From positions 55,655 through 119,654 of the IMG/VR virus record IMGVR_UViG_3300011116_000796: 64,000 bases of DNA. One strand, 5' to 3'. The translations under genes were made by a program, and so were the position numbers. Positions 48,616 to 63,518 of this stretch are shown in pieces; positions within the stretch are counted from its first letter, which is position 1; the number at the start of each line of letters is the position of its first letter. Origin of the DNA: a virus. The notes beneath the pieces are model-generated. The model saw nothing but the letters and a program-made list of their open reading frames with translations, was not told where the DNA came from and made no database searches.

Positions 48616-48651
48616 GTTTAGTAGTGTTGGAACCCCTAAGAAAGGTTGAAT

Positions 48652-49089
48652 ATGTTCGCACCTGAACTCATATCATTGATTGGCGGATCCGCCGTTGGAT
48701 TTCTCTTCAAGTTCATGGCGCAGAAAGCGCAAGATCAGAAAGAGATGTTCAATCGCCTCATAGAGGCAAACAAGAGAACAACTGAGAATCAAGATAAGGC
48801 AGCAGAGCGTGTGCCTCTTGATGTGGGCAAGGGGGTCCGTCAGTTGATTGTGCTTTCAGTCCTGTTCGGAACTCTTCTTGCTCCGTTTATTCTCCCATTC
48901 TTTGGTGTACCCACATTCGTTGAAGTGGACACCAATACATCAGAGGCACTGTTTGGATTAGTTCCTGCTACAGCAAAGAAGTATTTTGTTGAAGTGAACG
49001 GATTTGTTTATGCCTCTGAAACACGACAGATTCTTGTAAGTATCGTCGGTTTCTACTTCGGAACCGCAGCAGCAACAAACAGAAGTTAA
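48652..49089 (+). CDS. Holin-like membrane protein (145 aa)
   Basis: Hydrophobic segments at residues ~5-20 (LISLIGGSAVGFLFKFM), ~63-85 (RQLIVLSVLFGTLLAPFILP) and ~125-140 (ILVSIVGFYFGTAAA), separated by a charged amphipathic stretch (QKAQDQKEMFNRLIEANKRT). This pattern matches a membrane protein widespread in marine phages and often called holin. The ATG at 48652 with AAAGG is preferred to a TTG two codons upstream. A late promoter and the lipoprotein gene downstream would fit a lysis cassette, although no endolysin is seen nearby. Confidence 0.7.
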   Translation: MFAPELISLIGGSAVGFLFKFMAQKAQDQKEMFNRLIEANKRTTENQDKAAERVPLDVGKGVRQLIVLSVLFGTLLAPFILPFFGVPTFVEVDTNTSEALFGLVPATAKKYFVEVNGFVYASETRQILVSIVGFYFGTAAATNRS

Positions 49090-49098
49090 GGAGTTACC

Positions 49099-49497
49099 AT
49101 GAACATCAAACTATTATCGTTTACTGCGCTCCTTTTCCTTGGTGCATGCTGCACGGCTCCCGAAATTGTTCCTGACTCAACAGGCGACTCGGTCATCATG
49201 TTGAGCCTGAAAGAGCAGATCGCAAAGAACAGCAAGATCGATGCGGGTTGGGGATGGATTGCTTGGTATCTGCCTGTAGTAGGTCTTGCGGGGGCTTGGG
49301 CATGGAGAGAACTGATCAAGAAGCCTTTCACATGCGATACATGCGAGTTCGAAAAGAGCAAAGCCGTCAATGCCTACAAGAAGATCAAGGCCAATGAAGA
49401 AAAGGCCAAGGCTGATGCAGCCAAGGCCGATAAGCAAGAAGACGAAAAGAAAGAACAGGATCAACCAACTGATCCTGATCCGAAGCCTAATCCTTGA
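49099..49497 (+). CDS. Lipoprotein with internal membrane segment (132 aa)
   Basis: An N-terminal lipoprotein signal is evident: MNIKLLSFTALLFLGACC with the lipobox at Cys17. A second hydrophobic segment at ~50-67 (GWGWIAWYLPVVGLAGAWAW) is followed by a long charged, Lys/Glu/Ala-rich tail ending in Pro/Asp repeats. It follows the holin-like gene by 9 bases with an AAGGAG site. Lipid anchor plus membrane span recalls unimolecular spanins, but the order of parts and the charged tail after the span do not clearly match that class. Confidence 0.72.
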   Translation: MNIKLLSFTALLFLGACCTAPEIVPDSTGDSVIMLSLKEQIAKNSKIDAGWGWIAWYLPVVGLAGAWAWRELIKKPFTCDTCEFEKSKAVNAYKKIKANEEKAKADAAKADKQEDEKKEQDQPTDPDPKPNP

Positions 49498-52641: not shown

Positions 52642-53673
52642 TCACTCTACCAAAGCAGGCTCGGATCCCTGCATCTGCTTGGTGAGCAAAGCCATGTCGT
52701 ACTTGTACATGATCTTGGCAAGGAGTTTCATATCCACCTTTGGTTCCCATCCAAGCACACGCTTGGCCTTTGATGGATCGCCAAGAAGGAACGGAACTTC
52801 GTTCGGACGGAAGTACTTGGGGTCAATGACAACATGCTTGTTCCAATCAAGCCCTGCCTCTTCAAAGACTTCGGTCAAGAACTCACGAACGCTGTGAGTC
52901 TTCTGCGTTGCAACCACATAATCATCTCCCTGTGGTTGTTGCAGCATAAGCCACATAGCCTCCACATAGTCCTCTGCATAACCCCAATCACGAAGTGCGT
53001 CAAGGTTTCCAAGGCGCAGTTCAGACTGCAATCCCATCTTGATTCTTGCAGCAGCCATCGTAATCTTACGAGTCACGAATGTCTCACCACGACGAGGACT
53101 TTCATGATTGAAAAGAATGCCTGACGATGCGTGAAGACCATATGCATTTCGATACACACGGGTCATGTGATGAGCATGAAGTTTTGCAACAGCATATGGA
53201 GACACAGGCATCATGATGCTATTCTCGTTATATCCGACCGAAGGATCATAGTCCTTGCTGTCGCCAAACATCTCAGATGAGGATGCCTGATAGAAACGAG
53301 TCTTGGGGCTGAAAGTGCGAATTGCTTCAAGAATCTTTAATGTTCCCGATGCAATACCATCACATGTGTACTCGGGAATCTCAAACGATACCGCAACATG
53401 TGACTGTGCAGCAAGGTTGTAGAATTCATCAGGCTTATGTGTCATGATGACATGAGCGACAGCAGACCCATCAGTCAGATCAAAGTGATGCATCTTAAAT
53501 CTAGGATGATTGAAAAGGTGATCGATTCTTGTCGTACTGATAGATGATGTACGACGCTTGAGACCGATGACCTTATATCCCTTTGCCAAGAGCATGTCGG
53601 CAAGATATGAACCATCTTGACCATTTACGCCCGTGATAACAGCAGTCTTTCCATTCCAAATTTCATCTTGCAT
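52642..53673 (-). CDS. gmd: GDP-mannose 4,6-dehydratase
   Basis: 343 aa, full length for Gmd. Converts GDP-mannose to GDP-4-keto-6-deoxymannose, the first step to GDP-fucose, rhamnose-type and perosamine sugars. Extended SDR features: Rossmann GVNGQDG (residues 15-21), substrate-binding SSSEMFG (131-137) with catalytic Ser/Glu, and Tyr160-x3-Lys164 (YAVAK). The RDWGYAEDYVEAMWLM block is diagnostic. Start has GGAG upstream and a late-type promoter at 53714. Gmd genes are known in several T4-like cyanophages; together with the glycosyltransferase at 21736 it could feed glycosylation of virions or host glycans. Confidence 0.96.
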   Translation of the reverse strand: MQDEIWNGKTAVITGVNGQDGSYLADMLLAKGYKVIGLKRRTSSISTTRIDHLFNHPRFKMHHFDLTDGSAVAHVIMTHKPDEFYNLAAQSHVAVSFEIPEYTCDGIASGTLKILEAIRTFSPKTRFYQASSSEMFGDSKDYDPSVGYNENSIMMPVSPYAVAKLHAHHMTRVYRNAYGLHASSGILFNHESPRRGETFVTRKITMAAARIKMGLQSELRLGNLDALRDWGYAEDYVEAMWLMLQQPQGDDYVVATQKTHSVREFLTEVFEEAGLDWNKHVVIDPKYFRPNEVPFLLGDPSKAKRVLGWEPKVDMKLLAKIMYKYDMALLTKQMQGSEPALVE

Positions 53674-55209: not shown

Positions 55210-55584
55210 ATGGCTATATCCCAAACCGAAACGGCTAGAAGTGCCGTGGAGCAGTTTCTTCTTAGTTATGGGATAGATATCGGATTCTTAATCTCCGGTT
55301 TCTTTGGTGCCCTGCTCCTCGTCCCCAAAAACTCCGCACAGCGTGTTGGATCGACTCTTGCTTCCCTTCTGGCGGGCACAGCCTGTGCCAACTACTTGAC
55401 TCCTGTGGTCATGAGCATGCTTCCAGATGCCGTACAGAGCAACGGAAAGTATGCTGTGGCATTTGTCATGGGGTTTATGGGTTTGAAGGGTCTTGAGATG
55501 GTAATTAATCGATACTTTACGGCGCACGAAAAAAAGCCTACTAAAAGAAAAGTAAAGAGATCAACTAAGACAAAGAGGAAATGA
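55210..55584 (+). CDS. Membrane protein, holin candidate (124 aa)
   Basis: Three hydrophobic segments: residues ~21-40 (GIDIGFLISGFFGALLLVPK), ~47-68 (GSTLASLLAGTACANYLTPV) and ~80-98 (YAVAFVMGFMGLKGLEMVI), then a strongly basic tail (KKPTKRKVKRSTKTKRK). The order and basic end resemble holins of many tailed phages. It overlaps the next small membrane protein (ATGA). It is the second holin-like gene in the window besides 48652; which acts in lysis is unknown. Confidence 0.68.
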   Translation: MAISQTETARSAVEQFLLSYGIDIGFLISGFFGALLLVPKNSAQRVGSTLASLLAGTACANYLTPVVMSMLPDAVQSNGKYAVAFVMGFMGLKGLEMVINRYFTAHEKKPTKRKVKRSTKTKRK

Positions 55585-55928
55585 ACATGGACTGGTTGAT
55601 GGAAAACAAAGTTTGGTTGAATTTAGCCAGTAATGCAGTTTTGACTATGTCTTTTGCGTCCTTCATCATTTTCGTATTCGGAAGAAGCAATTCAATAATT
55701 CATAAGTTCAGTCTGCCAAAATCATTCGCATTGAAGACAGGACTTTCGATTTGCACAATAGGTGCTTTATACAATGCACTTACATTCAGCGACCCTCCTC
55801 TTTCAGAGGTTATTCTGAACACGGGTCTAGCCACACTATTCACATGGGCCGCACTATTTCACCATGAGCGGTTTGTGAAAAACTCAAGCGTCAAGGTGGC
55901 AAAGAAAAGAAACTTCAAGCGGAAATAA
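55581..55928 (+). CDS. Small membrane protein paired with holin candidate (115 aa)
   Basis: Hydrophobic spans at ~14-33 (ASNAVLTMSFASFIIFVFG), ~52-68 (TGLSICTIGALYNALTF) and ~78-92 (ILNTGLATLFTWAALF), basic C-terminus (KVAKKRNFKRK). Starts within the stop of the holin candidate with an AGAGGAA site. Likely an accessory of the same membrane system; no family name. Confidence 0.65.
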   Translation: MNMDWLMENKVWLNLASNAVLTMSFASFIIFVFGRSNSIIHKFSLPKSFALKTGLSICTIGALYNALTFSDPPLSEVILNTGLATLFTWAALFHHERFVKNSSVKVAKKRNFKRK

Positions 55929-55945
55929 GAGAGTAATCAGATACC

Positions 55946-55952
55946 CTAAATA
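55946..55952 (+). promoter_or_regulatory. Late promoter candidate CTAAATA before PEP-CTERM genes
   Basis: CTAAATA 69 bases upstream of the ATG at 56021; would drive both PEP-CTERM-like genes as far as the terminator at 57351. Confidence 0.65.
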
Positions 55953-56020: not shown

Positions 56021-56683
56021 ATGATCAAACCATCACTACCATTACCAACTAATTCAAGTGGCGGAGACTCATGTGAGTCCTGCAAAATGCTTTGCGAGAA
56101 ATCGAAAGATAAAGTAGAGAAACTTGAGAGCAAGGTCGGAAAGATGACAATCGCTCTGACTGTGTCTGTAACTCTGCTTGGTCAAGAACTTGCCAAAACT
56201 GTCATGTCGTATGTTGATAGCATCAACAAGATATCAGATGTCTCAACTGATGGTGAAACAAGTCAAACTGAAGAGAAGGGTGAGCAATCGAATAACTTTG
56301 AACTCAAACCGAAGTCACCATTTGTCTTGCCTCCATCCGACAATTCGGATAAGAGCGATAAAACGCCAATGGCTGCAAATGAGCCTAAAGGCGACTCGCC
56401 ATTCAAACCATCACCATCTACAAATTCACAGTCGAGAGGACAGTCGAATTCTGACATTCAATCATTGCCATCTACTGAAGATATGAGGAATCTCATGCAG
56501 AGTGCTTTGAATGAGCCACAGGAATTGCCTAACCTATCTCAGTTGATGTCATATGACCTTGCACCATTCGGTGGGTATGACATGTATACAGTTCCCGCAC
56601 TCGACTATACAAATATCCCATCGCCAAGTGGAATCTATTTGTTCGCCATGGGTGGAATGTTCGGATCTCGCAATCGTTCATAA
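56021..56683 (+). CDS. PEP-CTERM-like tail protein, Ser/Pro-rich (220 aa)
   Basis: The end reads IPSPSGIYLFAMGGMFGSRNRS: a Pro-Ser-Pro signature, a hydrophobic stretch and Arg-rich tip, as in PEP-CTERM sorting signals. The N-terminus has Cys-rich CESCKMLCEKSKDK, then a coiled segment and a mildly hydrophobic stretch (MTIALTVSVTLLGQELAKTV) that is a weak export candidate; residues ~90-165 are Ser/Pro/Asn-rich. I chose ATG 56021 with AAGGA 8 bases upstream over ATG 55991, which has no ribosome site. The lack of a clean signal peptide makes export uncertain. Confidence 0.68.
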   Translation: MIKPSLPLPTNSSGGDSCESCKMLCEKSKDKVEKLESKVGKMTIALTVSVTLLGQELAKTVMSYVDSINKISDVSTDGETSQTEEKGEQSNNFELKPKSPFVLPPSDNSDKSDKTPMAANEPKGDSPFKPSPSTNSQSRGQSNSDIQSLPSTEDMRNLMQSALNEPQELPNLSQLMSYDLAPFGGYDMYTVPALDYTNIPSPSGIYLFAMGGMFGSRNRS

Positions 56684-56695
56684 TAAAGGACAAGA

Positions 56696-57328
56696 ATGAA
56701 TAAGAATCTCCCCGCTATCGCTCTCGCAACATCATTGGCTGTTCCCGCTTCTGCTGGTCTTGTTAATGGAGGATTTGAATCCTTCCCCGTATGGGGTTAT
56801 GACTTCTACAGCGGAACCATTCCCGAAGACGGATGGGCAACAACTGCTCCCGACAATCTTATTGAAGTTTGGGGGAATGGATTCTTTGGAGTCCCTGCTT
56901 ATGAGGGAAACACATTTGCTGAACTGAACGCAAATTATGCATCAACACTCTATCAGCATGTTTCAAATGTGCCAGCAAACGGATCGGTGAACTGGCACTT
57001 CGCTCACCGTGGCCGTGATGGTGTAGATACAATGAATCTCACGATCACAGATCTTGGTGCAGATCAATCGTGGGGAGGTGGCGACGATACAGTTCTGTTC
57101 ACGCAGAACTTCTCAGCAGGCAATACTGACTGGGTCTTCAATTTTGGATCAGTGACCACCCTTGGTAACACAACAAGGTTTGCGTTTGAGGCTGTTAATG
57201 CCGTAGGTGGTAACACCCAAGGAAATCTTATTGACTTCTGCGATTTTGACATCAACGCAGTTCCTGCTCCAGGTGCAATTGCCTTGGTGGGTCTCGCTGC
57301 GTTCTTTATGTCACGCCGCCGACTTTGA
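56696..57328 (+). CDS. Exported PEP-CTERM protein with carbohydrate-binding-like domain (210 aa)
   Basis: A full signal peptide (MNKNLPAIALATSLAVPASA) is followed by GLVNGGFESFPVWGYDFYSG and FAELNANYASTLYQHVSNVP, the pattern of DUF642-type galactose-binding-like beta-sandwiches. The C-terminus VPAPGAIALVGLAAFFMSRRRL is a textbook PEP-CTERM-like anchor of the form found in Phycisphaerae proteins. Exported proteins with this tail are usually processed by exosortase-like enzymes and placed at the cell surface or in the matrix. The gene follows the previous one by 12 bases with AAAGGA, and ends before a terminator, so it is expressed late. Confidence 0.88.
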   Translation: MNKNLPAIALATSLAVPASAGLVNGGFESFPVWGYDFYSGTIPEDGWATTAPDNLIEVWGNGFFGVPAYEGNTFAELNANYASTLYQHVSNVPANGSVNWHFAHRGRDGVDTMNLTITDLGADQSWGGGDDTVLFTQNFSAGNTDWVFNFGSVTTLGNTTRFAFEAVNAVGGNTQGNLIDFCDFDINAVPAPGAIALVGLAAFFMSRRRL

Positions 57329-57343
57329 TATGAAATTCAAAAA

Positions 57344-57380
57344 CAAAAAGCCCCCGCATTACTGCGGGGGTTTTCTTTTG
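57344..57380. terminator. Bidirectional terminator between convergent genes
   Basis: Stem CCCCCGCA / TGCGGGGG (57351-57358, 57363-57370), TTTTCTTTT on the + side and AAAAAG (TTTTT on the minus strand) on the other. Confidence 0.9.
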
Positions 57381-57394
57381 GACTCGTAGTTCTC

Positions 57395-57703
57395 TTACTG
57401 AGGAACGGTCTGATCGTAGTAGTGCTGACCCTGATCGGTCAGGTTGTACTCGGGATTGCCCTCTTCGTCGTAGACGGTCACTTCGACCAACTTGCCGTTC
57501 GTGCCCGTGGGCGCAGAAGCGTTCTCTTCAAGGGCACCCATCAGGATGGAGACTGCCATTGAGGGGTTGGTGGTGAGCATCCACACGGCCACCTCCTGAA
57601 GGGACATGGTAGCGGGACGATCCTTGTAGGTCAGCCAGTTCTCAGCGACTTGATCGTCGGCTTGGGCGGGAGGGGGCAGGACGGCAGTAGTGGTCTTCTT
57701 CAT
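57395..57703 (-). CDS. Small protein, unknown (102 aa)
   Basis: No family recognised. Soluble, Ala/Pro-rich start (TTTAVLPPPAQADDQVAENW), helical body (LQEVAVWMLTTNPSMAVSIL), acidic tail region (EVTVYDEEGNPEYNLTDQGQ). The ATG at 57703 is preferred because the sigma-70 promoter boxes occupy the bases just upstream. GC is higher than in the structural genes. Confidence 0.68.
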   Translation of the reverse strand: MKKTTTAVLPPPAQADDQVAENWLTYKDRPATMSLQEVAVWMLTTNPSMAVSILMGALEENASAPTGTNGKLVEVTVYDEEGNPEYNLTDQGQHYYDQTVPQ

Positions 57704-57711
57704 ACGCCATA

Positions 57712-57739
57712 AGTATACAGACTTTTGGCATTCTGTCAA
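57712..57739 (-). promoter_or_regulatory. Sigma-70 promoter, leaderless arrangement
   Basis: TTGACA (57734-57739), 16-base spacer, TATACT (57712-57717) on the minus strand; 8 bases from the -10 to the ATG at 57703. Confidence 0.82.
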
Positions 57740-57751
57740 GCCCCTAAACCA

Positions 57752-58063
57752 CTACCAATCGTGCATGGGATTGGTTTCACTTATCGGACTATCGTGGGTG
57801 ACCTCACGAACAATTCCCTTGGCGGCATCGGCAAATTCAAGAATCGGAAGTTTCCTAGCCGAATCGATGAGTTTCATGCAATCTTGAATTTCATCAAGGT
57901 TATCGAACAGATCCAGATTGACGCATTCCACGCTGATTCCTGATAGAGTGTTATCGTCATTCCAGTACGCATGGTGAATTGCGTATCTGTTAATAATGTT
58001 GCCGTCACTATCCCAAAGAGAGTGACGGCAGACTCTGTAGTTATGAATCCTGTCATCGGACAT
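57752..58063 (-). CDS. Conserved phage/bacterial small protein, unknown function (103 aa)
   Basis: Resembles a short protein often seen in phages and bacteria (YRVCRHSLWDSDGNIINRYA, IHHAYWNDDNTLSGISVECV, then LDEIQDCMKLIDSARKLPIL), whose function is not known to me. Last of five overlapping minus-strand genes starting at 59071; its start shares a base with the preceding stop (TAATG). Confidence 0.7.
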   Translation of the reverse strand: MSDDRIHNYRVCRHSLWDSDGNIINRYAIHHAYWNDDNTLSGISVECVNLDLFDNLDEIQDCMKLIDSARKLPILEFADAAKGIVREVTHDSPISETNPMHDW

Positions 58064-58278
58064 TACTTCTTCTCCGTAAGCCTTACGATTTCACGAACCA
58101 ATGATTCGATCATGAGAGCGGCATTTCCATATAGTTGAGAGTCTCCACAGATAGAGACCAAACTGTTCTTGGATTCCGCACGAAGTTTTGCAGCAAGCCG
58201 TAAAGCATTACTCTGCTTCATGAGCCTACGCAGAGTTGCTCTTGCTTCCTTTTCTGTAGGTTGTTCACTCACTTGCAT
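58063..58278 (-). CDS. Small helical protein, unknown (71 aa)
   Basis: Helical and basic (EKEARATLRRLMKQSNALRL, ALMIESLVREIVRLTEKK). Start lies inside the end of the upstream gene, with AAGGGG just before it. No family recognised. Confidence 0.62.
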   Translation of the reverse strand: MQVSEQPTEKEARATLRRLMKQSNALRLAAKLRAESKNSLVSICGDSQLYGNAALMIESLVREIVRLTEKK

Positions 58279-58507
58279 TCCCCTTGAGAGAAAGAATGTG
58301 CTTGGTCACATCCATGGTGATGTTGGTAAGTTCGATCTCTTCCTCTTCGGTGATCCACGAAAGACCAGTCTTAATGACATAGTTCAATTCACGAATCATG
58401 CAAACAAGATCGTCAAGTTGGGCATTGTCTTCTTTCCAACTCTCAATACCGTGGAGAGCGACAATCATACCAATAAAGTTGCTCATGTGGCAGTCACTTG
58501 GTCTCAT
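58265..58507 (-). CDS. Small helical acidic protein, unknown (80 aa)
   Basis: Starts with MRPSDCHMSNFIGMIVALHG, then acidic helices (EEEEIELTNITMDVTKHIL). I chose ATG 58507, which has GAGG 9 bases upstream, rather than ATG 58522. It overlaps both neighbours. No family recognised. Confidence 0.6.
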   Translation of the reverse strand: MRPSDCHMSNFIGMIVALHGIESWKEDNAQLDDLVCMIRELNYVIKTGLSWITEEEEIELTNITMDVTKHILSLKGNASE

Positions 58508-58667
58508 CTTTTGTTTCCTCATCTGCGAAGTAGTTGTTGAGAGCGTTCAGAACACTGAGATAGAGATTGGTTCCCCATGTGTCGCCTCTGTCACCAAACT
58601 TCTCGGTGACAGACTTGGCGAACGCATAAGAGATCTGCTGAAGATCATCTTGAGAGGGCTTCGTCAT
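58494..58667 (-). CDS. Small protein of 57 aa
   Basis: Begins MTKPSQDDLQQISYAFAKSV and ends EETKDETK. The start overlaps the stop of the SPFH-like gene as ATGA and the stop falls within the next gene, so the whole operon is gap-free. Its middle (DTWGTNLYLSVLNALNNYFA) is a likely helix. No family recognised; coding status rests on tight fit in the operon. Confidence 0.6.
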   Translation of the reverse strand: MTKPSQDDLQQISYAFAKSVTEKFGDRGDTWGTNLYLSVLNALNNYFADEETKDETK

Positions 58668-59071
58668 CGCTTCCCTGCTTCAAGAATCGGAAGCCCCGCT
58701 TCCGTAGGGATGTAGATGACAGAGTTCGAACCCGACTCAAGGTTCTGAATCCAAAGCCAACGGAGGTACGATTCATTTCCTGCGAGAGATTCTCCGATGA
58801 TAAGATTCGCTTGTGCAACACCATGCGCCCTTTCGATTTCTGCCATCGCTAGTGCCTTGGCGGCTTCACGCTTGGATTCTGCCTCAAGAATCTGAATCTT
58901 TCGATTTTGTTCTGCCTGTGCGTATTGCGCCGCACCCTCCATCTCAGCCGCCCACACATTGTACTTCGGCTTCAAATAGGCGCACGATCCCACGACTGCG
59001 GTGAGGCCGATAACACCAATGGCAGCGAGAGTGAGGATAGAGTAACCATTTTCGTTTTCGATGTAAGACAT
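58664..59071 (-). CDS. SPFH/prohibitin-tail-like membrane protein (135 aa)
   Basis: One membrane segment at ~12-31 (ILTLAAIGVIGLTAVVGSCA), followed by an Ala/Glu-rich coiled coil (QAEQNRKIQILEAESKREAA) and the end ESYLRWLWIQNLESG, VIYIPTEAGLPILEAGKR. This matches short phage relatives of the C-terminal half of prohibitin/stomatin proteins, without the SPFH globular domain. Such phage proteins are common; a membrane-associated protective role has been suggested but is unproved. First gene of a five-gene operon with sigma-70 promoter and a hairpin leader; AAAGGA ribosome site. Confidence 0.8.
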   Translation of the reverse strand: MSYIENENGYSILTLAAIGVIGLTAVVGSCAYLKPKYNVWAAEMEGAAQYAQAEQNRKIQILEAESKREAAKALAMAEIERAHGVAQANLIIGESLAGNESYLRWLWIQNLESGSNSVIYIPTEAGLPILEAGKR

Positions 59072-59100
59072 TCTGTTCGTTTCCTTTGCTTGAATTAGTT

Positions 59101-59156
59101 AGAACCAGACATTTGGTTCTTTGGGTTAATTGTATAGTGTTGGGAGGATATGTCAA
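59101..59156 (-). promoter_or_regulatory. Sigma-70 promoter and leader hairpin of the SPFH-like operon
   Basis: TTGACA (59151-59156), 16-base spacer, TACAAT (59129-59134). The leader contains a 7-bp hairpin AGAACCA / TGGTTCT (59101-59107 with 59114-59120) near its 5' end, possibly stabilising the mRNA. Confidence 0.75.
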
Positions 59157-59175
59157 TAGGTAAAGGTGTGAGAAC

Positions 59176-59421
59176 TTACTTTTTCTTTTGAAGCCGAATT
59201 GGAGTTATCGGTCTAGATTCCCACTCTTCGGGAAACTGACCTTCGAAGATTTCCTCGACCCAAAGTAGGGGCAATTCTTGTTCGACATCTCTACCGTCAA
59301 TATCACCGTAGAGCCAACAGTTTCCCTTTGCAAGATCGATTCTTTTGATTTCGTATTTGCCGCTGTCATCATCGTCGGAGATGTAGATCTTGTCTCCAAC
59401 CTTGAGTTTCGTTGTTTTCAT
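59176..59421 (-). CDS. Small protein, unknown (81 aa)
   Basis: Reads KLKVGDKIYISDDDDSGKYE and NCWLYGDIDGRDVEQELPLL: a compact beta barrel-like composition (KVGDKI is typical of small SH3-like folds), no signal or membrane segment. It overlaps the upstream PEP-CTERM gene (ATGA) and so is the third gene of the 60559-59176 unit. No family recognised. Confidence 0.65.
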   Translation of the reverse strand: MKTTKLKVGDKIYISDDDDSGKYEIKRIDLAKGNCWLYGDIDGRDVEQELPLLWVEEIFEGQFPEEWESRPITPIRLQKKK

Positions 59422-59879
59422 TTCGTATTACCCTTTCTCTTTCTTGAGAACGCTGCTAGACCAAGTGCGAGAATTGGAATTGCACTTGGAGATGGAATTG
59501 GAGGTGGGTATGTTACTGATATATCACCAATTTGGTTTGGAATCATCGGAAACGATACACTCTCCACTCTATCAAACTGAACAGGAATGTAGAGATCCTG
59601 ATTCATGGTCTGAATCGCCAACACAAGAAACTCATCATTATAGATCTTGTGTACCCAAAGCCCCGTAAATGAACCCATGAACATGGGCATATCATTCTGT
59701 GGGTAGTTGCTTACTGTTGGTAGGTAAAGAGCAGATGTAACAGGATTCGTGATCTGTGATGTAAAAGTGAAGACACTCGGATAGTTGTAAGAGTCTCCTA
59801 AGTAAACTGCTCCCTGATCTATAGTTCTTGAATATCTACCGGCAGAGTCATAAATCGTAGATGTTGAATATGAGATCAT
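59418..59879 (-). CDS. PEP-CTERM-like protein without signal peptide (153 aa)
   Basis: C-terminus IPSPSAIPILALGLAAFSRKRK is a clear PEP-CTERM-like tail. The rest is beta-rich (YPSVFTFTSQITNPVTSALY, EFLVLAIQTMNQDLYIPVQF). The start used here is the ATG that shares its A with the preceding stop (TGATG); a start 13 codons upstream within the previous gene is possible but no start yields a signal peptide. Either export depends on the preceding gene or an N-terminal part has been lost. The coupling suggests co-expression with the full PEP-CTERM protein upstream. Confidence 0.72.
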   Translation of the reverse strand: MISYSTSTIYDSAGRYSRTIDQGAVYLGDSYNYPSVFTFTSQITNPVTSALYLPTVSNYPQNDMPMFMGSFTGLWVHKIYNDEFLVLAIQTMNQDLYIPVQFDRVESVSFPMIPNQIGDISVTYPPPIPSPSAIPILALGLAAFSRKRKGNTK

Positions 59880-60559
59880 CACTTTCTCCGTCGATTTGAT
59901 CCAAGCGCACAACTGCACAGCGCAAGAGCAAATGTTCCAGGAGAAGGGACAACTTCCATGTAGTAGAAATTGTCCATGGCAAAATGCTTGCGGTATTTGC
60001 CCAACGAATCATCGATCTCATTCCAGATGTGCAATGTGTCGATTTCATACCCCGCACCATAACTCACCCATGATCGATATTCATTAGAAATACTTTGCCC
60101 ATAATCAAACACAGTATTTCCATCTCGGATTCCTTGAATCCTGATGTTTCCGTTTTCCCATATAGATGTAAACCAAGCACCAAAGAAGTGCCAGTTGTTT
60201 CCGCTTGCCAATCGAATTGACCAACGCACAGGTTCTGAGTGATAGTATTCGGTGTAATATGGAGTGAACGCTGCTCTTTGACCAATTACACCAATTGAAT
60301 AACTTCCTTCTTGAGCGATACTTGAGTTTGAATTGTAGTATCCCCAACCAGTGCTGTTCCAACCATTGCTATTCGCATATCGTGGTGGAGTGGGAACACC
60401 ATTCTCTAGGCATTCGAAACGAAGTCCCTGATATTTTTCAAGGAATCCTGCACCATTGAATGGTACACTCGGATCTTCCTCAAAATCAACTAGAGTGACG
60501 CTTGCGTTAGCAAAGCACGATGAAAGACACAGAGCAAAAAATCCATTGTAAATATTCAT
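59879..60559 (-). CDS. Exported PEP-CTERM protein (226 aa)
   Basis: Signal peptide MNIYNGFFALCLSSCFANA, mature part beginning SVTLVDFEEDPSVPFNG with a lectin-like beta composition (WSIRLASGNNWHFFGAWFTS, RSWVSYGAGYEIDTLHIWNE), and C-terminal VVPSPGTFALALCSCALGS plus NRRRK, a PEP-CTERM-like anchor. The pattern DFE...P.F.G.GF resembles extracellular glycan-binding domains of planctomycete PEP-CTERM proteins. AGGAAATC precedes the start. Heads a three-gene unit. Confidence 0.82.
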   Translation of the reverse strand: MNIYNGFFALCLSSCFANASVTLVDFEEDPSVPFNGAGFLEKYQGLRFECLENGVPTPPRYANSNGWNSTGWGYYNSNSSIAQEGSYSIGVIGQRAAFTPYYTEYYHSEPVRWSIRLASGNNWHFFGAWFTSIWENGNIRIQGIRDGNTVFDYGQSISNEYRSWVSYGAGYEIDTLHIWNEIDDSLGKYRKHFAMDNFYYMEVVPSPGTFALALCSCALGSNRRRK

Positions 60560-60612
60560 GATGATTTCCTATAATAAAGATTTCAGAGGGTCAAATTAAA
60601 TCAGAAGTTAAA

Positions 60613-61671
60613 TTATAAAGGTGGAACAGAATTTGGCTGTATGGTGTAACTACCAAATTCCGCTAATAAGATTGCAAGGTCTGCTCCATCCACAACTCCA
60701 TTAAAATTAAGATCACAAATCGAATTAGTTTTACCGAAATTAGCCTGCATTACTGCAAGGTCTGCTCCATCCACATTCCCATCTTGATTGAAATCGGCTG
60801 CTTTTGCGGAGATTTTGGTTCTTGAAATTTGATAATCTTTGCTTACCTGACTTATGAGGGCATTTAGATTGTCCATCTCCGGTGGCCTAATATACCCGCC
60901 GCTCCACGAAAGACCTATAAGAATAGTATCATTATATTTGTCCAAGACAAAATATGGAGTTCCACTATCACCAGAGAATACCGAATAAAAACAATTCTGA
61001 GAGCACGTTAATGTCTCTGCACCTTCGTTAATCCCGTTCTCTCCAAGAATTACAGTCTGAGTAAATGAAAATGGGTAACTCAGTGGTGGATTGGTTTGCC
61101 ATGTCGCAACACCCATTTTACTTTTAAGACATTTTCCATTACAGTCATGGTACCAAATTGTGTGGCCTGTGGGGATGTACTGAACATCGGCAATCTTGTT
61201 GTAAACTTTTACATCATCCACGGGAACTGATTCACTAAATTCAAGAAGTGTACGATCAGTTGAGGTGTTGACTGTCACTTTTGAAACCATCATTGTGTAT
61301 TTTGTGCCGGACTTTCCAAGAAAGGTATAACTCTCATTTGGATTGGGATTGGGATTGGTTCCTCTATAGTGCGTACTAATTAATGCATGTTGTGGAGTGA
61401 TAAGAACCGCACATGGAACGCCTGTATTGTAATAGTTAATATTTGATTGATCATACGCTGATGCAGTAGTCGGTCCTCTTCGATAAAAAGACCGCTGTCG
61501 TAAACTCACACCAGACCAATCTACGGCAGCACCTTGGCATTGTGGATTATATGCAACAGGAACACCATTGCAGCAGCAGGGGCAAGTTGCTTGATTGGGT
61601 GGGGTGTAGACCGCTTCTGGATTGTATAGGTGAATGTCGTGAATTTGGGGTATGTAAGTTTTTACGATCAT
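60613..61671 (-). CDS. Trypsin-like serine protease fused to a type I dockerin (352 aa)
   Basis: Residues ~50-290 have the trypsin-fold triad: His101 (ALISTHY), Asp139 (STDRTLLEF) and Ser236 in FSGDSGTPY. The C-terminus has two Ca-binding dockerin repeats, DFNQDGNVDGADLAVMQANF (293-312) and CDLNFNGVVDGADLAILLAE (319-338), the GC-type form common in Planctomycetes. The N-terminus (residues 1-50) lacks a recognisable signal peptide and contains a CPCCC cluster. Dockerins attach proteins to cohesin-bearing surfaces. GAGGAAAG lies just before the ATG; a TATAAAAA box at 61716-61723 may be a late promoter. A phage-encoded protease with a host-type anchoring module is unusual. Confidence 0.85.
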   Translation of the reverse strand: MIVKTYIPQIHDIHLYNPEAVYTPPNQATCPCCCNGVPVAYNPQCQGAAVDWSGVSLRQRSFYRRGPTTASAYDQSNINYYNTGVPCAVLITPQHALISTHYRGTNPNPNPNESYTFLGKSGTKYTMMVSKVTVNTSTDRTLLEFSESVPVDDVKVYNKIADVQYIPTGHTIWYHDCNGKCLKSKMGVATWQTNPPLSYPFSFTQTVILGENGINEGAETLTCSQNCFYSVFSGDSGTPYFVLDKYNDTILIGLSWSGGYIRPPEMDNLNALISQVSKDYQISRTKISAKAADFNQDGNVDGADLAVMQANFGKTNSICDLNFNGVVDGADLAILLAEFGSYTIQPNSVPPL

Positions 61672-61715
61672 GACTCTTTCCTCATCACTAGTAGATAGGT
61701 CATAGCAAACTCATC

Positions 61716-61723
61716 TTTTTATA
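61716..61723 (-). promoter_or_regulatory. Late-promoter-like TATAAAAA before protease-dockerin gene
   Basis: One mismatch to T4 TATAAATA on the minus strand, 44 bases upstream of the start at 61671. Confidence 0.35.
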
Positions 61724-61748
61724 CAGTCTGGTCATCTTGTTCATGTAA

Positions 61749-62837
61749 TTACTTTGCTCCCAAAACATCTCTTCCAAGAATGCCATTAGTGGTCAACATA
61801 TGGAAGGATGTATCTGCTAAAAGGTCGAAAGAAAGTTGCTCGTAAAATCCATTTGCTCCCCAAGGTGTTCCTTCGTGCCATAAACCTCTCTGTTGAGGGG
61901 GTGGGGTTGACGATCCATTCCACCCTGCCCGGGCACGACGGTCAGCGTCCATGACTTCAGATACTGCAACAGCACTAACATGACCATCAAAGAACAGTGT
62001 ATTTGGTGTGCTACTATTCCCTTGATTAAAGAACCAAGGAGTATATCCGCCAGCAAATCCGGGATTGAGTGGCCCACCGTCTTGATTCTGTAGCCAATAG
62101 AACTCAATCATGCGAGTCTTTAGTTCAGAATACTTTGCTTGACCCTGTGTAGGACACTTGTACCCTGCGGGAAGAGTATTAGGATTTCTAAATCCCTTGT
62201 CTGAAAGCACATCTGGGTTCCACAATGCGGCAGGACTCCAAACATATGTTGAAAACACTACTGCACCAGGTTGATTGGGAAGCAGAGTAAATTCGCCAGG
62301 ACTGCCTAGACCTTCATCTGCTCGTTCCATTGTCAGTTTGTCTTTTGGAGCAATAAAGGTTCGGTCATAGAAACGACCATTAATGTAACTATTGAACGCC
62401 TTTACATTAGGCAATCGGTAATAGCCAAAGCCTCCATTAGTGAAAGTCCACTCGTTTGGGTGGTACACAATCCAATTGTTGCACCCGCCTGGTTGTGTAA
62501 GCGGACACAAGCCGCCGCCCAACCAGTATCCGTACAGGTTTCCTTGACTGTCCCACCCCAAAATCTGTTGACCAGGACAGCCAATAGTATTCAGATACAC
62601 TTGGCAACTACCGTTAGCAAGACCAAAATCGTCTGCTGCTTGTGTAAACTGACGGTCAGCGTAATCAGCCCCGTAAGTAGCATTAGCAGCGGCAAGATTC
62701 CTTAGATTGCCAAGGCTTTGAGTCACTAGAGCAGCATCTCTTGCTCGTCCCAGTGCAGGAAGCAAAATTGCAATCAGTAGTGCGATAATGGCAACGACAA
62801 CCAACAACTCAACAATAGTAAATGCCTTCTTTTTCAT
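61749..62837 (-). CDS. Type II secretion/pilus-like pseudopilin (planctomycete type, 362 aa)
   Basis: N-terminal prepilin signal KKKA followed by FTIVELLVVVAIIALLIAIL, with Glu at mature position 5 as required for pilin assembly. A helix RARDAALVTQSLGNLRNLAA follows. The C-terminal TPNTLFFDGHVSAVAVSEVM fits the DG-type motif near the end of large planctomycete pseudopilins. Cleavage by a host PilD-like peptidase and assembly into a host pilus or secretion pseudopilus would be expected. Ribosome site AAGGAG. Such a gene is typical of planctomycete genomes; in a phage it suggests capture from the host. Confidence 0.88.
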   Translation of the reverse strand: MKKKAFTIVELLVVVAIIALLIAILLPALGRARDAALVTQSLGNLRNLAAANATYGADYADRQFTQAADDFGLANGSCQVYLNTIGCPGQQILGWDSQGNLYGYWLGGGLCPLTQPGGCNNWIVYHPNEWTFTNGGFGYYRLPNVKAFNSYINGRFYDRTFIAPKDKLTMERADEGLGSPGEFTLLPNQPGAVVFSTYVWSPAALWNPDVLSDKGFRNPNTLPAGYKCPTQGQAKYSELKTRMIEFYWLQNQDGGPLNPGFAGGYTPWFFNQGNSSTPNTLFFDGHVSAVAVSEVMDADRRARAGWNGSSTPPPQQRGLWHEGTPWGANGFYEQLSFDLLADTSFHMLTTNGILGRDVLGAK

Positions 62838-62850
62838 ATTTTCTCCTTAA

Positions 62851-63219
62851 TTAAAGTAGTCCCATCTCTTCATCAAGTCTAGTCATCTCTTTAAGTGCCT
62901 CATCTACACTAATTTTAAGTTTACTCGGATGATCCTTGAGGTATTCCCACCCACGCTTCTCGTATTCCTCATTCATCTCTTTGGTGGATGCACGATCAGA
63001 CAGCAGGAGCATCGCTTCCCGCCTCGCCTCGTCACGCTCCTTACGCAGACGCTGAATCTCGTTACCCCGTAGGTCTTGGATTTTAATGGCTGCTTCGTAT
63101 AGCAGCGTAGGAATACCGTCCAGTTCGGATCGTTCCCCAAATGGGGTGGATGCTTGCCTGCGGCTCAACTCATAATACATCGACCTGAGCCTGTCAACGA
63201 TGTCTGTGTTGTCATCCAT
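62851..63219 (-). CDS. Conserved phage-type coiled-coil protein (122 aa)
   Basis: Starts MDDNTDIVDRLRSMYYELSR, a form frequent in phage small proteins (D-I-V-D-R-L-R), followed by EAAIKIQDLRGNEIQRLRKE and a long coiled coil. Function unknown. The ATG at 63219 has AAGGAG 7 bases upstream. It begins 18 bases after the previous gene. Confidence 0.72.
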   Translation of the reverse strand: MDDNTDIVDRLRSMYYELSRRQASTPFGERSELDGIPTLLYEAAIKIQDLRGNEIQRLRKERDEARREAMLLLSDRASTKEMNEEYEKRGWEYLKDHPSKLKISVDEALKEMTRLDEEMGLL

Positions 63220-63236
63220 TGTTGTTCTCCTTGTTA

Positions 63237-63518
63237 TCAAATCTTCTTGGGCAGAGTGAGGGGGTAGGAAGGTCCGCTGACAACTTCATTCTGAATGAGG
63301 ATGGTCTTCAGGGTGTCGAATGCCTCACCCATCTCCTCTGAGATGTCATCACATGCCTTCTCAATATCACGACCGCTGATGGAGCGTGACGAGACATTAT
63401 TGTTGAGTTTAGTAATCTTTGCGAACAGACCCTCCATCGTCTTTGCGATGTCGTAGAGGTCAGATGCACTTGTGGTAACGGTCTTGTTGGTCTTGTTCTT
63501 TGTTGCAGTCTTAGGCAT
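63237..63518 (-). CDS. Small helical protein, unknown (93 aa)
   Basis: Thr/Lys-rich start (PKTATKNKTNKTVTTS), then helices (DLYDIAKTMEGLFAKITKLN, KACDDISEEMGEAFDTLKTI). The ATG at 63518 has AAGGAG upstream and follows a near-consensus promoter. No family recognised. Confidence 0.68.
   Translation of the reverse strand: MPKTATKNKTNKTVTTSASDLYDIAKTMEGLFAKITKLNNNVSSRSISGRDIEKACDDISEEMGEAFDTLKTILIQNEVVSGPSYPLTLPKKI

Follow-up and report, generated by a model that had tools for sequence, protein, structure and literature searches.

Why would a T4-like phage carry genes whose products end like substrates of a bacterial protein-sorting enzyme? The question is raised by a window of 64 kb, the final part of a 119.7-kb virus record, in which an initial annotation, made from the sequence alone, had described four PEP-CTERM-like proteins. 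PEP-CTERM/exosortase (EpsH) sorting is known from bacteria (Haft et al. 2006, PMC1569441). The structural genes of the window are T4-like and include a gp23-type major capsid protein; gp23 shows 64% identity to that of Pelagibacter phage Mosig, which bears out the T4-like label given to this DNA earlier. A chimera of host and phage DNA was ruled out, since the gene pairs seen here are found again in other, independent contigs (L006, G005, L121 and others). The features of the locus are as follows.

55210-55584, plus strand: E, a holin (PHROG 2359 holin, E 4e-12), opening the gene cluster that precedes C-D
55581-55928, plus strand: F, a small membrane protein and partner of the holin, its frame overlapping E; E-F lies beside C-D in five other contigs
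55946-55952, plus strand: late promoter CTAAATA, 5' of C-D, from motif enrichment before gene starts
56021-56683, plus strand: C, with a Cys/coiled-coil N-terminus, a weak central hydrophobic stretch, a long Pro-rich region and a PEP-like C-terminal tail
56696-57328, plus strand: D, with a signal peptide, a CBM-like jelly roll and a PEP-CTERM tail
57257-57325, plus strand: PEP-CTERM sorting signal of D, residues 188-210, AVPAPGAIALVGLAAFFMSRRRL (TIGR02595 17.5 bits; PAPGA tail model)
57351-57370, no strand assigned: hairpin terminator behind D with T-rich flanks; listed on the minus strand, plus side reads TTTTCTTTT
59418-59879, minus strand: orphan protein of 153 aa whose tail is PEP-like (13.8 bits with TIGR02595, short of the cut-off)
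59879-60559, minus strand: second secreted PEP-CTERM protein, relatives with conserved tail
60613-61671, minus strand: trypsin-like protease carrying dockerin type I repeats; PF00404 exceeds its cut-off with 29.3 bits
61749-62837, minus strand: pilin-like protein with an N_methyl domain, companion gene and host marker

The four open reading frames were confirmed (56021-56683 and 56696-57328 on the plus strand, 59418-59879 and 59879-60559 on the minus strand), and the C-termini of all four consist of P-x-P-[G/S], then a hydrophobic run, then a basic tip. When a fixed pattern was compared with shuffled sequences, 4 of the 182 ORF C-termini in the window matched against 0.07 expected. All four tails claimed initially are thus present by pattern, although their strength is unequal. 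Among 3324 distinct viral C-termini the pattern was found in 25 (0.75 expected), and 24 of these belong to the four window genes or their families. In a six-frame genome search with TIGR02595, D (56696) reached 17.5 bits and was the only one of the four to pass the cut-off of 16, and 59418 reached 13.8 bits, under the cut-off. Whole-protein hmmscan of D gave 13.4 against 16 bits (NCBIfam) and 16.2 against 20.7 (Pfam). The proposed check with this profile therefore came out in part as expected: D exceeds the cut-off when the genome is searched, but none of the proteins does so in whole-protein hmmscan. C, 59418 and 59879 stay below the curated PEP-CTERM cut-offs (TIGR02595/PF07589) and, on the tail alone, score weakly with Phycisphaerae tail models. 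The tails of a Phycisphaerae genome, G283, give 17-21 bits with TIGR02595, a range that includes phage D in the genome search; therefore, the modest curated score of D is what this clade gives. The initial interpretation is thus supported in part. Its claim that the tails are exosortase-type signals in Phycisphaerae wording is supported, but the four proteins differ in standing: D is firm, homology makes 59879 firm as well, the PEP-like C is atypical, and 59418 is weak, with neither signal peptide nor relatives found. Two clear signal peptides had also been claimed, and by eye and hydropathy these are found in 56696 and 59879.

D ends in VPAPGAIALVGLAAFFMSRRRL and begins with a signal peptide, recognised by sequence and hydropathy. 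Its tail scored 32.2 bits (E 1.2e-8) with a PAPGA tail model of Phycisphaerae. When a Phycisphaerae-tail HMM was run against 3324 viral C-termini, the D family came out on top, with D of the window at E 6.8e-9, and among 226 anchor-like C-termini clear scores with the PAPGA model were limited to PEP or PEP-like proteins. About 18 viral contigs, of which some are near-duplicates, encode a tailed relative of D (58-95% identity). Across the family, P-x-P-G, hydrophobicity and the Arg tip are constant and the remaining tail residues vary; most of the family's tails lie under the curated TIGR02595 and Pfam cut-offs. For D, dN/dS is 0.05-0.19, indicating purifying selection.

Structure prediction, which had been suggested as a check, gave a CBM-type beta-sandwich for D. 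The AlphaFold model is a jelly roll (pLDDT 76), and its best matches among solved structures are mostly polysaccharide-binding modules with Z up to 14.7, the value obtained with the CBM4-2-derived 3jxs (rmsd 2.7, 148 residues). The fold predicted for D is that of CBM4/16/22/61 and HpiC1-type jelly rolls (Z 13-14.7 over about 140-160 residues); D differs from them in having no catalytic partner domain, and its sequence identity to them is 11-19%. Jelly-roll domains of unrelated proteins (e.g. meprin) are also among the matches, and no function was deduced from them. The CBM fold is common to proteins of many functions, and the modelled domain of D could bind something other than a glycan. In bacteria, relatives of the D domain are joined to other surface anchors: those of Listeria have LPXTG-type tails, and one Phycisphaerae genome has the domain with an IPTVSEWG-type tail. 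The INPHARED matches of D (H1-H4, 'Listeria phage') were set aside, as they look like bacterial contamination, with chromosomal genes and an LPXTG-type protein that shares the domain. These records (OR848176, OR846815, OR846807 and OR848137) are unverified, and OR848176 resembles a fragment of a bacterial chromosome.

C and D form a conserved two-gene cassette tied to holin genes in many phages, which the initial annotation had missed. C lies directly before D or overlaps it in every contig showing both. Among 13 aligned members of the C family, 9 have the PEP-like tail (in L120, for example, VPEPSTISVFLAQSFFNQRRRS; one reads literally VPEPST) and 4, from four contigs, have a short form. Because C exists tail-less in these four contigs, its tail is dispensable there. 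C has no clear signal peptide by sequence and hydropathy, and hmmscan, Pfam and PHROG profiles found no enzymatic domain in C or D. The base composition of C-D is phage-like, with a GC3 of 0.41; the sampled part of G283 has 68% GC. In the window, E-F adjoins C-D. E, whose product is 34% identical to the holin of a Shewanella phage, also adjoins C-D in L006, L125, L128, L132 and L134. Among 17 relatives' contigs, some of them near-duplicates, E-F or another pair, A-B, adjoins C-D in 12, in two orders; the link is absent in L120, L123, L124 and G005, and L126 is cut off. A-B spans 48646-49497 in the window. A (48646) is a 145-aa membrane protein with a relative in Verrucomicrobia phage P8625, and B (49099) is a small, u-spanin-like lipoprotein, which has a lipobox and, near its C-terminus, a hydrophobic segment.

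It had been stated that a late promoter precedes two of the four genes, and C and D do lie behind CTAAATA at 55946. Nine of the 11 CTAAATA sites in the window are located 10-90 nt upstream of same-strand gene starts (P 1.5e-11), and none of the other permutations of this 7-mer has more than 5 upstream sites. Genes behind CTAAATA include those for capsid, sheath and tube as well as C. The 11 sites extend from 2102 to 55946. The T4 consensus TATAAATA was also tried as the late promoter core and showed no enrichment; CTAAATA serves instead.

The second secreted protein, 59879, has a clear signal peptide by eye and hydropathy. It has a full-length relative with a conserved tail in L007/G001 (61% identity); L008 has one that looks identical, L009 has part of one, and INPHARED gave no match. 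The search for planctomycete homologues, also suggested earlier, was informative here: two distant Phycisphaerae relatives have a signal peptide and VPAPS/IPEPS tails, and these relatives support the PEP-CTERM class for 59879 despite its weak own tail score. AlphaFold, given three sequences, modelled it poorly (pLDDT 45). The ATG of 59418 overlaps the stop of the next gene; no signal peptide was found in it by sequence and no relative among viruses, and as a weak candidate it is not counted as a PEP-CTERM protein. The dockerin protease (60613-61671) has H, D and the GDSG motif in place, two dockerin-type repeats and no signal peptide. A 42% relative is present in phage record G001 (104030-105109); a single-protein viral scan found none. 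The dockerin and pilin-like neighbours share a surface-protein theme with C-D, which had also escaped the earlier reading, and these companion genes vary between phages. In the slot near the gp32-like gene (59418-63240 in the window, 7469-9842 in L091, 7711-8693 in L007 and 68-1077 in L009), one phage has a pilin-like gene and others have a 59879-type PEP protein. This slot is a variable surface-protein cargo site.

Which host would provide the exosortase? The pilin-like gene at 61749 has 97% identity to a gene of phage G005 (L091 8001-9089) and 81, 70 and 64% identity to three tandem genes of the Phycisphaerae genome G283 (C6:284-3795). Its relatives at E below 1e-30 were found in 17 of 298 Phycisphaerae genomes. 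G283 has one exosortase and VPAPGA tails, e.g. VPAPGAIALLGLAGLVGARRRG, which closely resemble that of D. This one pilin-like gene and the tail wording suggest that the host is probably an exosortase-bearing member of Phycisphaerae; at the species level the host is a presumed one. Co-occurrence of exosortase had been named as a check, and exosortase was found in every tested genome of the pilin/PAPGA clade, the presumed host clade. PEP-CTERM proteins are present in 60 of 61 Phycisphaerae genomes, and the exception, G041, is also without exosortase. Neither tails scoring no better than random membrane anchors nor homologues in exosortase-less hosts were encountered. A phage-encoded exosortase was considered as well, and no exosortase gene was found in the nine phage records searched, which may be incomplete. 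With 97% identity between phages and 81% to the host copy, the pilin-like gene is a marker for host assignment, and the tail wording would point to likely hosts of uncultured phages.

We consider it reasonably probable that the phage encodes exosortase substrates and exports glycan-binding proteins late, and that the host exosortase places them on the surface or matrix. Here we infer exosortase cleavage, surface display, glycan binding and the benefit alike. The phage would infect an exosortase-bearing member of Phycisphaerae, bringing the substrates while the host brings the enzyme. The late CTAAATA promoter would drive C and D next to the holin genes. D would leave the cytoplasm by Sec, and its CBM-like domain would fold outside. 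The host exosortase would then cut the VPAPG-hydrophobic-RRR tail, by which D would be handed to the envelope or matrix; 59879, whose gene lies at another locus, a variable one, would be sorted likewise. As the likeliest benefit, glycan-binding proteins made by the phage would cover the surface polysaccharide shortly before and after lysis, and with such a coat progeny would not be lost on debris or to superinfection. Phage exclusion and altered aggregation, the benefits proposed initially, are likewise hypothetical. The chances are about even that this extends to widespread T4-like planctomycete phages, in which a late C-D cassette with holins would decorate the envelope or matrix via the host exosortase; as far as we found, no virus that depends on exosortase sorting has been described before.

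The main rival to the coating of glycan at lysis, which we favour, is assistance in lysis itself. C-D would then belong to the lysis programme, and D would bind glycan and, with C and lipoprotein B, loosen the outer layers for release and not for masking; placement of C-D by exosortase may still occur. The location of E-F or A-B beside C-D in 12 of the 17 relatives' contigs, in two orders, and of E-F in the window, the u-spanin-like lipobox and hydrophobic segment of B, the PHROG holin match of E and the late promoter before C-D are consistent with this, but no enzymatic domain was found in either C or D, and C-D lies apart from E-F and A-B in G005 and L120. We regard this explanation as rather unlikely, and we know of no lysis protein that is sorted by exosortase.

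It is more doubtful still that the tails are plain membrane anchors, which merely retain the proteins in the inner membrane with no action of exosortase. The tails are short and of mixed hydrophobicity, and those of C, 59418 and 59879 score weakly by themselves. However, P-x-P-[G/S] stays the same and in place while hydrophobic residues change, D tails are distinct from other anchor-like C-termini, and their wording is that of the presumed host clade's own substrates. Least probable is that planctomycete genes were captured recently and are useless passengers. The 81% identity of the pilin-like gene to host genes and the variability of companion genes between phages would fit this, but C and D are phage families with phage-like base composition, and C-D is conserved across divergent T4-like phages under purifying selection and behind a late promoter, which disfavours it for C-D.

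Exosortase systems are widespread in environmental outer-membrane bacteria, and the roles of the sorted proteins are mostly obscure. As in these bacterial systems, D combines a predicted signal peptide, an unrelated, presumably extracellular domain, a P-x-P motif, a hydrophobic stretch and an Arg tip, and an exosortase is present in the presumed host clade too. In contrast to bacterial PEP-CTERM systems, the substrates are here on a T4-like phage with no exosortase in the records searched, and C-D is a late unit beside holin genes, whereas in bacteria a PEP-CTERM gene mostly forms an operon by itself. The nearest analogue is staphylococcal SasX, a prophage-encoded LPXTG surface protein using the host sortase; in both cases the gene is phage-borne and the product uses, or here would use, a C-terminal sorting enzyme of the host. 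SasX-type proteins depend on sortase in Gram-positive lysogens, whereas here it would be exosortase in an outer-membrane host, with a T4-like phage and a late promoter. We found no report of phage PEP-CTERM proteins or exosortase substrates in the open-access literature covered. Phage use of host sorting enzymes would be extended from sortase to exosortase. A virus with its own, strongly conserved substrates would show that the exosortase route matters in infection, and C-D, with its two genes, would offer a compact means of approaching the surface biology of planctomycetes.

Elsewhere in the window, a GDP-mannose 4,6-dehydratase is encoded at 52642-53673; it exceeds the TIGR01472 cut-off and has a relative in G005 (51%). 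This enzyme may change surface sugars.
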